The translations under genes were made by a program, and so were the position numbers. From Stappia sp. 28M-7 (GTDB lineage Bacteria; Pseudomonadota; Alphaproteobacteria; Rhizobiales; Stappiaceae), in assembly GCF_014252955.1 (NCBI RefSeq), contig NZ_JACMIA010000001.1, forward strand, positions 744,001 through 808,000: a DNA stretch of 64,000 nucleotides, written 5' to 3'. This document shows, piece by piece, positions 45,991 to 54,244 of the stretch; position 1 is the stretch's first letter; every line of letters starts with the position of its first letter. Under the pieces are notes generated by a model that worked only from the letters and a program-made list of their open reading frames with translations, was not told the origin of the DNA and ran no database searches.

Positions 45991-48900
45991 TTACTCCGCC
46001 AGCACGCGCTGCGGCGGGAAGGTGACCTCCACCAGCGTGCCGTGATTGACCTCCGAGTCGATCCGGAAGCTCGCCCGGTTCGCCTCTACCAGCGCCTTGG
46101 TCAGCGGCAGGCCGAGCCCGGTGCCGCCGCCGTGGCGGGCGGTGTGCAGCTGGCGGAACGGCTCCATCGCCGCCGCCAGGTCCTGGTGGCTCATGCCCAT
46201 TCCGGTGTCGCGCACCCGCAGGATCACCTCGCCGGTGTCCTCCAGCGCCGTCGAGACGATCACCTGTCCGCCCGGCTGGTTGAACTTGATGGCGTTGGAC
46301 AGAAGGTTCAGCACGATCTGGCGCACCGAACGGCCGTCGGCGACGATCTTCGGCACCGAGGTCGGAAGGCTGGCGCGGATGATCACCCGCTCCCGGTTGG
46401 CCTGCGGCTGCATCAGGGCGACGCATTCGCGGATGATGTCGTTGGCCGACACCGCCTCGAAGGTCAGGTCCAGCTTGCCCGCCTCGATCTTCGACAGGTC
46501 GAGCAGGTCGTTGATAAGGCTCATGATATGCGAGCCGGAATTGTGGATGTCGCGCAGGTAGCCCTTGTAGCGGTCGTTGCCGACCGGGCCGAAGCGCTCC
46601 TCCATCATCACTTCCGAAAAGCCGATGATCGCGTTGAGCGGCGTGCGGATCTCGTGGCTGATCTTGGCCAGGAAGTCCGACTTCTGCGAGCTGGCGTTTT
46701 CCGCCTGCCGCTTGGCGTCGGTCAGTTCCTCCTCGGCCGTCTTCCACTGGGTGATGTCGCGCAGCACCGTGCAGAAGCGCGGCCCTTCCGAGCCGTGGCC
46801 GACCCGGCCGATGGTCATGAACAGCGGGATCAGCCCGCCGGAGCGCAGCTGGCCGATCACCTCGCGCCCGTCGTTCAGCACGCTGGCAACGCCGTTGCGG
46901 GCCAGCCCGTCCAGATAGTCGTTGGCGTCCCGATGGCTTTCCGGGGCCAGGAAGTCGGTCAGCGGCGCGCCGATCATGTTCTCGCGCGCCCCGTCGAACA
47001 GCGCCTCGGCCGAGCGGTTCACCTTCATGATGCGGCCGCCCTCGTCGAGGATCAGCACCCCGTCCGTCGCGGTTTCCAGCACCGCATCCATCTCGGCCAG
47101 GTGCTCTTCGGCCAGCGCCAGCGACGACTGGGCCTCGTGCAGGCGGTCGAGCGCGGCTTCCTGCGCCGGGTCGTGCCGGTCGAGCAGCGACATCATCAGC
47201 GCCGTGCCCTCCTTCCACGGGACCGTGTGCAGCCGCGCCTTCACCGGCTTGGTGCCGCCATCGGCGAGCCGGATGCGCATGGTCCGCTCGGTCATGGCGC
47301 CGGGCAGGGCGCTCGGCCAGTCCTCGGGCTCGGCAAAGACCGAGTCGAGCCCGCCGACGGATTTCAGCGTGTCGAGATCGGCATAGCCGAGCAGGTCGAG
47401 CAGCGTCGCATTGGCGTAGTCGACATCCTCGCCGGCAATGATCGCGACACCGACCGGCAGCTTGTCGAGCAGGCTGGTGCGCGCCGCGCGCGGTGCCGGG
47501 GCCTGCACGCGCGGGATGATGCCGAGGCTCGCAACGTTGGAGGCTTCGCGTCCGCCGACGATGCCGGCAGTGTCCGGCGTGGAGGCGGCGACCGGTCCCG
47601 GTGCGGCGGCTGCCGCGTCCTTTGCCGCATCCTTGGCGGGGGCATTGGTCGCAGGCGCCTGCGGGGCAGGGGCTGCGCTGCGGGTCGGCTCGGCAGGCGG
47701 TGCGGCCGGTTCCTCCGGCTCGTTGCGTGCGCCGAGCGCTTCGGCGATTTTGCGGAAGGCCTCGCGCTCGGGCTTGGACAGGCGCGATGTTTCGAGGCTG
47801 TCGTCGCGGCGCGCGGCAATGCCGGCCTCGCGGTCCGGCGTCCCGGTGCCCGACCGGGCGTCTGAACGAGTGTCCGGCGTGTGGACCGGTGCCTGCGGCT
47901 CGATCAGCGGCAGCAGGCCGGCTTCCACCGGAGCGGCCGTCTCATCGGCGGATTGGGCCTCGTCTTCGGTGGGAGCGGTCTCTTCTGCTCCAGTCTCGGT
48001 TTCAGCTCCAGCCTCAGTTTCAGCCTCAGCCGTAATCCCGGCTTCGGTCCCGAGTTCGCCTTGGGCTTCCGGTTCCACTTCGTCCTGCGCGAAGGTGGCC
48101 TCGTCCTCGGCAACCGGAAGGACCGGTTCCGCAGGGGCGGCCGGCGGCTCATCGGCCTGCAGGTCATCGCCTTGCTGGTCGGGCGTCTCTTGCACGCTCG
48201 CTTCGTCGCTGCCGACCGGCGAGAAGGCCGCGTCGGTCGTGTCCGCATCGTCCGCGGCAAGGATGTCGTCGATCTCCCGCGCGCCCGGCAGGTCCAGCAG
48301 ATCGGCAACGTCGGCGGTCAGTTCCCGGGGGGCGGGCTCGGCCGCGTGCTCTTCCGGGTCCGAGGCCAGCATGGCTGCCGACACGGCGGCCGGGATGGCG
48401 GCAAGATCGGTCGTGCTGTCTTCTGCCGGCGGCACGGCGTCGGCCGTCTCCGCCGTCTCCGTGACGGGGGGCGTCTCCGGTTCGTGCGTCTCGATGCCAC
48501 CGGTTTCGGCCTCGGCTTGCGCGTCCTCGCGCAGCGTCAGCGCAAGGCCGGTCGCCGCCGGATCCTGTGACGCCTCGCCGGTCCGGCATACACCGAACCC
48601 GCGGAAGCCCTCGAACACCCGCTGGCGGTCGAAGGCCGGCAGCGCCGCCATATCGACGGGCACGCGCAGGGCCGCACCGCTGACCGGCCAGTCGACGGTG
48701 CGTCCGCTCCAGGTGTCGCGGCGGCGCAGCGCGGCCGCAACCCGGCCGTCCTGATCGAGGTCGAACCTCTCGGCCACCTCTTCCCAGCTGAGCCCGACCA
48801 CATCGGCGGCCTGCGGGCCGAGCGCCTCGGCAAACTCCGGCGAGATGAAGGTGAAGCGCCGGTCGATATCCATCTTCCAGGCAAAGCGCACCGGCCGCTC

Positions 48901-50322
48901 GCGCGCCTCGAAGGCGAAACCGGACGTGGCGCCGGCAGGCAGGGCGCCGGCAGGTAGGGCCTCGACAGGCGCTGTGGCCTCACCGTGTCCGTCGTCGATC
49001 TCGGTATCGGCGTCGGATTGCGGCTCGGCCTCCACCTCAAGGCGTACCTCGTCCACTGTCTCGATGGCGGGCGCGGTCTCGTCCTGAACAGGCATGTCTT
49101 CCTGGGCGGGCGAGGGCGCCGCGATCTCGTCGGCCTCGCGTGTTTCGCCCGTGCCCTCCTCGTGCAGATCCGCCTCGTCCGCCTCCGGGGCGGTCTCGGC
49201 AAGGGCCGCGTCCGGCACTTCGTCGGCGATCACGACCGCCTCGGCCGCAGCGACCAGCGTTTCGGTCGTCTCGAGAACAGGGGCCTGCGACGCCGCGTCT
49301 CGGGCTTCGGCGGTGTCCGCATCGGCGCCGTCGTCATCTACAGCAATCTCCTGCGACACAGGAGCAGGGGGGAGCGGTTCGCCCGCGTCTGCGGGTGGGA
49401 TATCCGCAGGCTCGGCGCTTGCTGTCCGGCCCGCCGGGAGAAAGCGCGTGCCGCTGGCAAAGGCGAAAAGGCCGCCCCTGCTGAGGCGGCTGCGCGTCGG
49501 CGCTTCGGTTTCTGTCTCGCTCTCGGTCACGGTTTCGGCGGGGACGGGCGCGGCGGCCTCGACAGGGCCGGCCTCGTCCGGCTGTTCCGCTGCCGTCGTC
49601 TCGTCGGCCGGCGTTGCGGCGTCGGCAAGATCTGGCGCGATCGCGGGTGCCGCGTCTTCGGCAAGCGGGCGGCCGCCGGCCTCGGCGACCATCAGCACCG
49701 CGCCGCTGTCCAGCGTCAGCACGGCCGTCTCGTGCAGCTCTTCGCCGAAAGCGAAGGCCCGGCGCAGGGGCGCATGCTTGGCCTGGCGCAGAGCGGCGCG
49801 CACGCTGTCGGCGTCGGGCAGATCCAGCTCGCCCGTGCCGCTGGTCAGCACGGTGCCGCTGCGCTGATACAGCACGGCGACATGATCTTCGCCGCCCAGG
49901 AAGTCGACAAGCGCGGCTTCCTCGCCGTCGCCCGCATTGGCCGGGGCGTCGAGCGCGACGATCAACGCGCCGCTGGAGCCGTTCGGCAGGTCGAGCCGGC
50001 GGCAGGCGCAGGTCAGCAGCATCACCCGCAAACCGCGATAGAAGCGCAGCCGGTCGATGGTGTCGCGCTCGGTCGAACCGCTGATCGCGACCCGCGCGAT
50101 GTGCGGGCGCGCAGGCGCACGGCCGAGGCCCGAAAGCTCGGACAGGGCCGCAAGGGTGCCGACGCCGAAGAAGGCCGCGCCCGCCGGGTTCGCCCACAGC
50201 AGCGTCTTGCCGTCCTCGGCCCAGATCCAGGCCGGGCGTGCATCCGTCAAATGGCTGCTGGCGGCCGCCAGGCCGCTCAACGCCATGAAGGTGCTCAACT
50301 GGCTGTTCATGGGCATGCTCAC
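45991..50322 (-). CDS. PdhS-like cell-cycle sensor histidine kinase with PAS domains
   Basis: A 1443-residue cytoplasmic kinase, longer than the roughly 1000-residue Brucella PdhS. N-terminal PAS-like region (to about 150), then an acidic disordered stretch (about 225-465, rich in Glu/Ala/Pro/Thr). A PdhS-type core follows (about 472-585, RFTFISPEFAEALGPQAADVVGLSWEEV… RDTWSGRTVDWPV… RRVFEGFRGFGVC), then a second acidic stretch, PAS at about 949-1050 and PAS at about 1078-1190. HisKA has His1223 in HEIRTPLNAIIGFSEVMMEERFGPVGNDRYKGYLRDIHNSG, and the ATPase has NLLSNAIKFN, DTGMGM and GGGTGLGLPL. It should feed phosphate into DivK-like regulators. Confidence 0.88.
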   Translation of the reverse strand: MSMPMNSQLSTFMALSGLAAASSHLTDARPAWIWAEDGKTLLWANPAGAAFFGVGTLAALSELSGLGRAPARPHIARVAISGSTERDTIDRLRFYRGLRVMLLTCACRRLDLPNGSSGALIVALDAPANAGDGEEAALVDFLGGEDHVAVLYQRSGTVLTSGTGELDLPDADSVRAALRQAKHAPLRRAFAFGEELHETAVLTLDSGAVLMVAEAGGRPLAEDAAPAIAPDLADAATPADETTAAEQPDEAGPVEAAAPVPAETVTESETETEAPTRSRLSRGGLFAFASGTRFLPAGRTASAEPADIPPADAGEPLPPAPVSQEIAVDDDGADADTAEARDAASQAPVLETTETLVAAAEAVVIADEVPDAALAETAPEADEADLHEEGTGETREADEIAAPSPAQEDMPVQDETAPAIETVDEVRLEVEAEPQSDADTEIDDGHGEATAPVEALPAGALPAGATSGFAFEARERPVRFAWKMDIDRRFTFISPEFAEALGPQAADVVGLSWEEVAERFDLDQDGRVAAALRRRDTWSGRTVDWPVSGAALRVPVDMAALPAFDRQRVFEGFRGFGVCRTGEASQDPAATGLALTLREDAQAEAETGGIETHEPETPPVTETAETADAVPPAEDSTTDLAAIPAAVSAAMLASDPEEHAAEPAPRELTADVADLLDLPGAREIDDILAADDADTTDAAFSPVGSDEASVQETPDQQGDDLQADEPPAAPAEPVLPVAEDEATFAQDEVEPEAQGELGTEAGITAEAETEAGAETETGAEETAPTEDEAQSADETAAPVEAGLLPLIEPQAPVHTPDTRSDARSGTGTPDREAGIAARRDDSLETSRLSKPEREAFRKIAEALGARNEPEEPAAPPAEPTRSAAPAPQAPATNAPAKDAAKDAAAAAPGPVAASTPDTAGIVGGREASNVASLGIIPRVQAPAPRAARTSLLDKLPVGVAIIAGEDVDYANATLLDLLGYADLDTLKSVGGLDSVFAEPEDWPSALPGAMTERTMRIRLADGGTKPVKARLHTVPWKEGTALMMSLLDRHDPAQEAALDRLHEAQSSLALAEEHLAEMDAVLETATDGVLILDEGGRIMKVNRSAEALFDGARENMIGAPLTDFLAPESHRDANDYLDGLARNGVASVLNDGREVIGQLRSGGLIPLFMTIGRVGHGSEGPRFCTVLRDITQWKTAEEELTDAKRQAENASSQKSDFLAKISHEIRTPLNAIIGFSEVMMEERFGPVGNDRYKGYLRDIHNSGSHIMSLINDLLDLSKIEAGKLDLTFEAVSANDIIRECVALMQPQANRERVIIRASLPTSVPKIVADGRSVRQIVLNLLSNAIKFNQPGGQVIVSTALEDTGEVILRVRDTGMGMSHQDLAAAMEPFRQLHTARHGGGTGLGLPLTKALVEANRASFRIDSEVNHGTLVEVTFPPQRVLAE

Positions 50323-52139: not shown

Positions 52140-52315
52140 TTCGCCTCCCTCCCCACATTGCTCATTCTCCTTATGCGTGACAGGCCGGCTTGTTGCCGCC
52201 TTTCGTGACGTTGCGCACGGCCGCGCCCGACTTTCCTTGCCTCCATCCTGCATCTTGAGGCACCCTGCCATAGGGGGCCGCCGGAACAATTGGACACGCA
52301 GGCGGGTTGGGGGAG

Positions 52316-52723
52316 ATGGCAGAGGACACCGGACGGACCGGTCATGCCGGCGATTCAACCGCCTATCGGATGCGTCGGCTGCTCGAGACCTATTACGACT
52401 TGACGCTGCAGATCAGCGAGCGTCTCCACGTGCACGACATGTCCGATGTCCTGATGCTGGTGCTGGTTGCGATCGCCGATCTGCGCGGCGCGCCGATGGA
52501 TGCCGAACTCCTCGCCGAAAAACTCGACTCCTCGCGCTCCACCATCGAGCGCCGCCTCAAGCCCTATCTGGATGACGGCCGGATCGCCAAGGAACGGCGG
52601 GGCAAGTCAGTGGTTTACCTATGGTCGGCCGAGGCCGGACAGCGCGAGGAAGCGCCGCCGGACATGAGCGTCGAGATGGTCCGGGCTGTCATGGCGATGG
52701 TTTTTGACATTGCCAACGATTGA
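52316..52723 (+). CDS. Small winged helix-turn-helix protein, GC-rich copy
   Basis: A 135-residue protein of unknown function with normal GC content. An N-terminal helical segment (about 17-55) leads to a winged-HTH core at about 60-105: MDAELLAEKLDSSRSTIERRLKPYLDDGRIAKERRGKSVVYLWS, with the recognition helix around SRSTIERRL. It is MarR/HTH-like and could bind DNA; no ligand domain is present. ATG at 52316 is preceded by GGGGGAG. It aligns without gaps to the next gene product (20 of 84 identical), so the two are tandem, diverged paralogues. Confidence 0.72.
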   Translation: MAEDTGRTGHAGDSTAYRMRRLLETYYDLTLQISERLHVHDMSDVLMLVLVAIADLRGAPMDAELLAEKLDSSRSTIERRLKPYLDDGRIAKERRGKSVVYLWSAEAGQREEAPPDMSVEMVRAVMAMVFDIAND

Positions 52724-52895
52724 GCTGACGCAAGGTACAGGCGGGTTAAAATTGTGGATAATCTGCATGACTGCGAAAATTACCCAGTGGATTGCCTGCC
52801 GCGCCCGCGACTTGGCGCTTGAGCTGCCGGGAATCGCCCCCGGAAACAGGCCTATTTCGTCAAAATGACGAATGACGACCCTCGGGAGGACCTTC

Positions 52896-53318
52896 ATGGC
52901 ACATTCAGATGATGAACTCCCGACTCAGGCGCACCGGATTCTGCGCCTCTATGAGATGTTTTTCAGCCTCATGTTCCGCTTCATGGAAGAGTATGAAGTA
53001 AACGACCTTGGAAATCTGATGATTATTACGACGATTTCCATCGCTAATGCGAACAGGATCGAGGCGGATATTGAAACTATCTCTGAGGAAACGGACATTC
53101 CGTACTCAACAGTACGTAGAAAAATCGAAAAAATGTGTGCTGATGGCATCCTTGAGATGCGAAAAGAAAATCAGAAGCTTGTTTTTTCTATCTCAGACCA
53201 GATGAACTTTGCTCACCCGGGTCAGAATAAAGAAGAAATAAGAAGAAAATTCCAGAAAGATGTAATTGATATTGTTGTTAAGTCTATAAACGCAATAATA
53301 CTTGAGAATAAGAAGTAA
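52896..53318 (+). CDS. Small winged helix-turn-helix protein, AT-rich copy
   Basis: A 140-residue protein with the same layout as its neighbour: N-terminal helices AHRILRLYEMFFSLMFRFMEEYEVNDLGNLMIITTIS, then a wHTH IEADIETISEETDIPYSTVRRKIEKMCADGILEMRKENQKLVFSIS and a basic, Lys/Ile-rich tail. Codon use is clearly AT-rich (AAT, ATA, TTT, AGA) unlike almost every other gene in the window, a sign of horizontal acquisition or relaxed constraint. RBS GGGAGGA is ideally spaced before ATG 52896. Role unknown; a DNA-binding regulator is the best guess. Confidence 0.72.
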   Translation: MAHSDDELPTQAHRILRLYEMFFSLMFRFMEEYEVNDLGNLMIITTISIANANRIEADIETISEETDIPYSTVRRKIEKMCADGILEMRKENQKLVFSISDQMNFAHPGQNKEEIRRKFQKDVIDIVVKSINAIILENKK

Positions 53319-53343
53319 AATTCAGAATGAAAAATTCATTTAA

Positions 53344-53373
53344 TTGACCTGTTAAGGTATCGTTAACTATACA
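53344..53373 (+). promoter_or_regulatory. Candidate gcrA promoter with CtrA site between -35 and -10
   Basis: TTGACC (53344-53349, 5 of 6) and TATACA (53368-53373, 4 of 6) are 18 bases apart, about 200 bases before the gcrA ATG. The spacer contains the full CtrA site (53352-53366), the classic geometry of repression. Confidence 0.55.
53352..53366 (+). promoter_or_regulatory. Full CtrA binding site (TTAA-N7-TTAA) upstream of gcrA
   Basis: TTAA at 53352-53355 and TTAA at 53363-53366 are separated by exactly seven bases (GGTATCG), the consensus for the master regulator CtrA. In Caulobacter CtrA represses gcrA. Position between the promoter elements supports repression here. Confidence 0.75.
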
Positions 53374-53570
53374 ATACACATACTCGATGACAGGTTCATC
53401 GAGTGACAGAGCCGGGGGGCGGGAACGCTCGGAACGCTCGCCACGGCGATGTGAGTCGCTACCGGAAAAACAGGATGTCGACAGCTGCCGGCGCTCGAAA
53501 GGGGCATCGGCGGAACAGGGAACCTGCGTGTGCGCACCAGGTGACCGAAGAGAAGAAAGCGGGGCTGAAC

Positions 53571-54101
53571 ATGGCTTGGACTCAGGAACGCGAAGATCTG
53601 CTCAGGAAGCTGTGGCTGCAGGGGCTCAGCGCCAGCCAGATCGCCTATGTGATGGCGGGCATCACTCGCAATGCAGTGATCGGCAAGGCCCATCGCATGG
53701 GGCTTCCCAAGCGTTCGCCGGCTACCAGCCATCGTCCGAAGCCCCGGGTCCAGCGCGGCAAGCCCTCGCTCGCCCTGGTCGGCGCCAAGCCGGCTCCGCG
53801 TGAAAGCATCATCGAGAAGCAGTTCCAGCGCAGCCTCGGCCTCAGCTTCGAAAGCGGATTCCAGGCGGAGCAGGGCGATCGCGTCACGCTGATGACGCTG
53901 ACCAGCCGCACCTGCAAGTGGCCGATCGGCGATCCGGCGGATGCCGACTTCCACTTCTGCAGCCATGAGGCGGAGAACGGCCGCTCCTATTGCGAGTTCC
54001 ACCACGGTCTTGCCTATCAGGGTGTCCGTCGCCGTCGTCAGGCGTCCGAGCGCACCGTAGCTGCCGTCCAGGCGATGCCGCTTCGAGCGATCGCGGTCTG
54101 A
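53571..54101 (+). CDS. gcrA: GcrA-family cell-cycle regulator
   Basis: A 176-residue protein. The N-terminal HTH (MAWTQEREDLLRKLWLQGLSASQIAYVMAGITRNAVIGKAHRMGLPKR) and the C-terminal zinc/Cys-His region (LTSRTCKWPIGDPADADFHFCSHEAENGRSYCEFHHGLAYQGVRRRR) are both classic for GcrA. It binds GANTC-methylated promoters with sigma-70 to drive S-phase and division genes. ATG at 53571 fits family length. Upstream promoter carries the CtrA site; two tandem terminators follow. Confident identification. Confidence 0.96.
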   Translation: MAWTQEREDLLRKLWLQGLSASQIAYVMAGITRNAVIGKAHRMGLPKRSPATSHRPKPRVQRGKPSLALVGAKPAPRESIIEKQFQRSLGLSFESGFQAEQGDRVTLMTLTSRTCKWPIGDPADADFHFCSHEAENGRSYCEFHHGLAYQGVRRRRQASERTVAAVQAMPLRAIAV

Positions 54102-54164: not shown

Positions 54165-54202
54165 GGGGCGAGGCCGGTAACGGCCTCGCCCCCTTTTGTT
54201 TG
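54165..54202 (+). terminator. Terminator 1 after gcrA
   Basis: A perfect 12-bp stem (54165-54176 with 54181-54192) with GTAA loop, then CTTTTGTTT. Confidence 0.9.
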
Positions 54203-54210
54203 AAGGCGCT

Positions 54211-54244
54211 GCGAGGCCGGCAACGGCCTCGCTCTTTTTGTTTT
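54211..54244 (+). terminator. Terminator 2 after gcrA (near copy of terminator 1)
   Basis: A 9-bp stem (54211-54219 with 54224-54232) with GCAA loop, followed by TCTTTTTGTTTT. It repeats the GCGAGGCCG/CGGCCTCGC core of terminator 1, so it looks like a local duplication; a third, broken copy (GCTGCGAGGCTG) lies at 54250-54261. Confidence 0.9.

Follow-up and report, generated by a model that had tools for sequence, protein, structure and literature searches.

Together, our results point to a lineage-specific second GcrA in the marine Stappia sp. 28M-7, encoded by a gene that we call gcrA2, which is likely transcribed on its own and repressed by CtrA through an operator in the spacer of its promoter. 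The gene lies in a 64,000-nucleotide stretch of the genome, the window, to whose numbering positions refer unless a contig or locus is given. Its placement and its conservation in 17/17 genomes give good support for a CtrA operator at this gcrA-family promoter, in a position where it would block RNA polymerase.

gcrA2 (53571–54101, + strand, as are the promoter, leader, terminators, and winged-helix gene described below) begins with an ATG at 53571 and encodes a 176-amino-acid protein that scores 145 bits against the Pfam GcrA model (cut-off 26.9). The genome holds two GcrA genes. The other, canonical gcrA (G000:C1:1047343-1047861), lies ~250 kb from gcrA2, adjoins a gene for a PhoB-type regulator (phoB), and is the better match to the Pfam model. 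GcrA2 retains both GcrA (PF07750) domains, the N-terminal DNA-binding domain and the C-terminal sigma-interacting domain. Most of its length can be aligned to the solved full-length chain of Caulobacter GcrA (7ye1), and it also matches the structures of the DNA-binding and sigma-interacting domains (5yiu and 5yix). As judged from its family, GcrA2 probably has the role of GcrA, assisting sigma-70 as a cofactor at promoters that are methylated. The NCBIfam model for the sigma-70 cofactor GcrA equivalog (NF050816, threshold 280 bits) cannot separate the two proteins, because both score below threshold (135 bits for GcrA2 and 184 bits for canonical GcrA).

When 249 sampled genomes of the order were searched for gcrA2, proteins from Stappia and one sister genus scored at least 282 bits, and all others scored 174 bits or less. 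Relatives of the gcrA2 type were found in 14/14 Stappia genomes and in 3/3 genomes of the sister genus. In a tree, these proteins formed a clade of their own (support 100/99) outside the canonical GcrA proteins of Stappiaceae and other Rhizobiales; the deeper placement of this clade is unsure because the sequences are short and the branches long. By these comparisons, gcrA2 is a lineage-specific second GcrA that, among the genomes sampled, is limited to Stappia and one sister genus. The sequence-only reading, which held that the promoter reproduces the Caulobacter repression of gcrA, was inaccurate in this respect, as GcrA2 is 41% identical to the canonical GcrA of its own genome and belongs to a separate clade. 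A phage origin for gcrA2 was not supported: phage matches were distant (29–43% identity), and the upstream neighbor is constant across the genus.

The elements of the gcrA2 promoter could be read directly. The −35 hexamer TTGACC (53344–53349), in which TTGAC is unvarying in 17/17 genomes, is separated by 18 bases from the −10 element TATACA (CTATACAAT; 53368–53373), and 15 of these 18 bases make up a CtrA full site, TTAA-N7-TTAA (53352–53366), which reads TTAAGGTATCGTTAA and is the sole match in the window. The earlier placement of a full CtrA site exactly between TTGACC and TATACA (53344–53373) therefore holds. Of the wider claim for a CtrA site in the gcrA promoter, the site, its placement, and its conservation stand, while the gene proved to be the second, diverged GcrA rather than the canonical one. 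The −10 is short of perfect. Positions 2–3 (AT) are unvarying in 17/17 genomes and TAT is present in 15/17, with TATAAA, TATAAC, TATATT, TATGAT, GATAAT, or CATAAT in relatives. A strict sigma-70 scan of the region missed the promoter because it demanded T at the last −10 position. About 10 bases 5′ of the −35, the sequence TGNAAA (53328–53333) is also unvarying in 17/17 genomes and may provide one more promoter or regulator contact.

A full site was expected 0.01 times in the 64-kb window and found once. Pattern searches of the 5.13-Mb genome returned 23 matches, compared to 12 for the reversed control pattern. When the intergenic region 5′ of gcrA2 was shuffled with dinucleotides preserved, 0.12% of the shuffles contained a perfect site; when the letters of the spacer were shuffled, 0.02% did. 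Conservation is stronger evidence for the site than these single-genome chance figures. All 17 genomes examined that have gcrA2 (14/14 Stappia and 3/3 of the sister genus) carry the site in register, within a common block of TTGAC-N3-TTAA-N7-TTNA-N2-AT. Eight sites are perfect (TTAA/TTAA), and nine have one mismatch, in the second half-site (TTAA/TTCA in seven and TTAA/TTTA in two). Across the 18-base spacer, unvarying columns made up 7/8 of the motif positions versus 0/10 of the others (Fisher p = 2.5e-4), where p-values are indicative only, as the 17 genomes share ancestry and are not independent tests. For this count the block was located through TTGAC-N3-TTAA; since a separate look that dropped this requirement found the site in 17/17, no genome was selected away. 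Could the motif nonetheless be chance AT-rich promoter sequence, passed down among close relatives? Among shuffles of the AT-rich 70 bases of the intergenic region, DNA of like make-up, 1.7% contained a perfect site and 22.6% a one-mismatch site. However, conservation is limited to the half-site columns, and the adjoining spacer columns vary, across two genera, making this explanation very unlikely.

The motif might instead be read by another regulator and merely resemble a CtrA site. The gene directly 5′ of gcrA2 in at least 15/17 genomes encodes a small winged-helix-like protein (52896–53318) whose TrmB-type HTH match is weak and does not reach the curated cut-off, and its stop codon lies 25–28 bases from the gcrA2 TTGAC in 15/17 genomes. 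This gene position and the departure of half of the second half-sites from TTAA speak for such a reader. Yet this gene has its own, different palindrome, TTCGTCA-N3-TGACGAA (52856–52872), the sole copy in the genome, and conservation in the spacer coincides exactly with the CtrA half-sites and leaves the N7 free; we regard another regulator as distinctly improbable. A repeat similar to the palindrome occurs at the matching place in most relatives, and it is possibly an autoregulatory operator of the winged-helix gene. A further reading, in which CtrA bound to the spacer serves as an activator of gcrA2, or as activator and repressor in one, strikes us as unlikely. It draws on the Caulobacter promoters hemE Ps, fliQ, and fliL, at which CtrA has both roles (PMC11264516), and on the dual role proposed for gcrA of S. 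meliloti (PMC3616915). On the other side, the near-consensus TTGAC −35 of gcrA2 needs no activator, and the site fills the spacer, whereas activating sites typically overlap the −35.

Two other features were seen near the winged-helix gene. A second small winged-helix-like protein is encoded in tandem with the first (52307–52723), and by eye the two look related to each other. A candidate DnaA box at ~52753 was rejected because it is not conserved, being exact only in this genome and TGTGGAAAA in most relatives.

We favor a model in which gcrA2 is repressed by CtrA. The gene would be transcribed, apparently alone, from a single sigma-70-type promoter whose spacer is nearly all CtrA site. When abundant, phosphorylated CtrA would fill this spacer and keep RNA polymerase off, and gcrA2 would be expressed when CtrA is cleared. 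We infer this direction and timing because a −35 so close to consensus can do without an activator, and because polymerase would be blocked by a regulator that fills the spacer. The position of the site fits repression, as there are precedents in Caulobacter: the ctrA promoters P1 and P3, which are repressed and have their CtrA sites in the −10 region (PMC4287350), and hemE Ps, where CtrA sites at −35 and −10 mediate repression (PMC11264516). Points against the model are the mismatch in the second half-site in 9/17 genomes, the imperfect −10, the relatedness of the 17 genomes, and the ability of CtrA to activate as well.

Since gcrA2 has its own promoter and is followed by two terminators, it appears to be a one-gene transcript. 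The terminators (54165–54192, with a stem of 12 pairs, and 54211–54232, with a stem of 9 pairs, each running into a T-rich tail) are near-identical, with the common stem GCGAGGCCG-CGGCCTCGC. The predicted leader spans ~190 nt (53380–53570), from a start site inferred from the −10 to the ATG, and is about 190–210 nt in the 14 Stappia genomes and longer in two sister-genus genomes (G005 and G006). At its very start is a stable stem-loop, ACTCGATGA-CAGGT-TCATCGAGT (53382–53404; leader fold, z = −2.5), which occurs with changes in several relatives. Covariation in this stem-loop was not above chance, as 226/500 shuffles were as high in both-side changes, and the leader matched no riboswitch or other Rfam element. 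We rejected a methylation-timed gcrA2 promoter, because the only GAGTC (~53453) is found in 4/14 Stappia genomes; no conserved GANTC lies upstream of gcrA2 in the Stappia genomes compared.

Further components of a CtrA circuit, which also speak for the model, are present in the genome. The CtrA gene (G000:C1:4100932-4101603) scores 426 bits (cut-off 350), and a CcrM-type RAMA domain was found. The ctrA upstream region contains TTAACCAT and four GANTC sites, while TTAACTCCCGATTTA and one GANTC lie near the ccrM start. CtrA full sites also occur 5′ of flgB and of hemE (L152:1367-1381; TTAACCATCTGTTAA). Since hemE adjoins the replication origin in several alphaproteobacteria, the hemE site may be an origin site. 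These CtrA-type sites (at ctrA, hemE, and flgB) sit where they would be expected and support reading the gcrA2 site as a CtrA site. A few kilobases from gcrA2, a large histidine kinase (45991–50322) matches the model for the cell-division kinase PdhS in its C-terminal part, with a score of 789 bits that is below the cut-off of 2000.

We surveyed canonical gcrA using a strict full-site motif with a one-mismatch threshold, which ignores half-sites and degenerate sites. In Stappiaceae, a CtrA-like site lies within 250 bases of the start in 28/30 loci compared to 2.5 expected, and these 30 loci contain 8 perfect sites compared to 0.13 expected. In a sample of 16 loci from the order, CtrA-like sites were present in 4 compared to 1.85 expected; 15 of these loci, with 3 of the 4 matches, are from non-Stappiaceae families, and one match is from Stappiaceae. 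Class-wide, sites were not above chance (16/44 loci, 16.1 expected). The survey lost 7/23 and 17/61 loci in which the pattern did not recognize the start or the upstream stretch was too short. On conservation across Hyphomicrobiales gcrA genes, the check named in the sequence-only reading, canonical gcrA has a conserved CtrA-like site in Stappiaceae, and by the strict motif the other Rhizobiales families sampled give no clear excess. In the ten Stappia loci whose upstream sequence could be read, canonical gcrA is preceded by two conserved GANTC sites. A palindrome of the type ACGANATCTCGT (L001:2131-2146) is also found 5′ of canonical gcrA and recurs across Stappiaceae.

CtrA probably controls canonical gcrA too, and both GcrA proteins would then be held down when CtrA is high and rise as it falls. 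More tentatively, the two genes may form separate arms, one consisting of canonical gcrA with conserved GANTC and a CtrA-like site, and the other of gcrA2, occluded by CtrA and lacking conserved GANTC; we hold this to be possible rather than probable. If true, a sigma cofactor of the GcrA type, with targets of its own, would be made in a second pulse that does not depend on methylation.

For Caulobacter, it is textbook knowledge that CtrA controls gcrA, and both a second GcrA and the principle of a CtrA-blocked gcrA promoter were already known. What appears to be new is a second GcrA with its own conserved, predicted CtrA-occluded promoter: we found no description of this combination in the literature searched, and no publication there that mentions Stappia along with both CtrA and GcrA. 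The gcrA2 case extends a known circuit in a sensible way and is not a new kind of system. That the predicted CtrA-over-GcrA link is seen on an independent second GcrA argues that this wiring is worth keeping or re-evolving. In addition, the gcrA2 promoter is compact and natural, and it lends itself to tests of whether CtrA can repress by occluding a spacer.

Like the CtrA-DnaA-GcrA-CcrM circuit of Caulobacter crescentus, the Stappia system has a CtrA site at the promoter of a gcrA-family gene, and with such wiring GcrA and CtrA would be expected to peak out of phase. Unlike in that circuit, the gene is a second, diverged GcrA, and canonical gcrA lies elsewhere with its own site. Caulobacter also has a second gcrA-family gene, gcrB (CCNA_01269), which the available portion of PMC3885167 describes as 44% identical and as able to partly replace gcrA when expressed; that portion describes no regulation of gcrB. 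In Stappia and Caulobacter alike, the second GcrA thus shares about 40–44% identity with the first. In Rhizobiales, CtrA control of gcrA was considered absent (Brilli et al., 2010; PMC2877005), a view that gcrA2 would qualify, at least for Stappiaceae. The non-Caulobacter setting, which the sequence-only reading stressed, is not in itself novel, since a CtrA motif overlapping the start site of S. meliloti gcrA was reported in 2013 (PMC3616915). Both are Rhizobiales genes whose promoters have a predicted CtrA site, but the S. meliloti gene is a canonical gcrA, and its strong motif covers the start site on the opposite strand, outside the −35/−10 spacer. Finally, Caulobacter ctrA P1 and P3 and hemE Ps share with gcrA2 the placement of CtrA sites inside the polymerase footprint (PMC4287350, PMC11264516). 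In those promoters, the sites are half-sites or overlap the −35 or −10, whereas in gcrA2 a full site fills the spacer.
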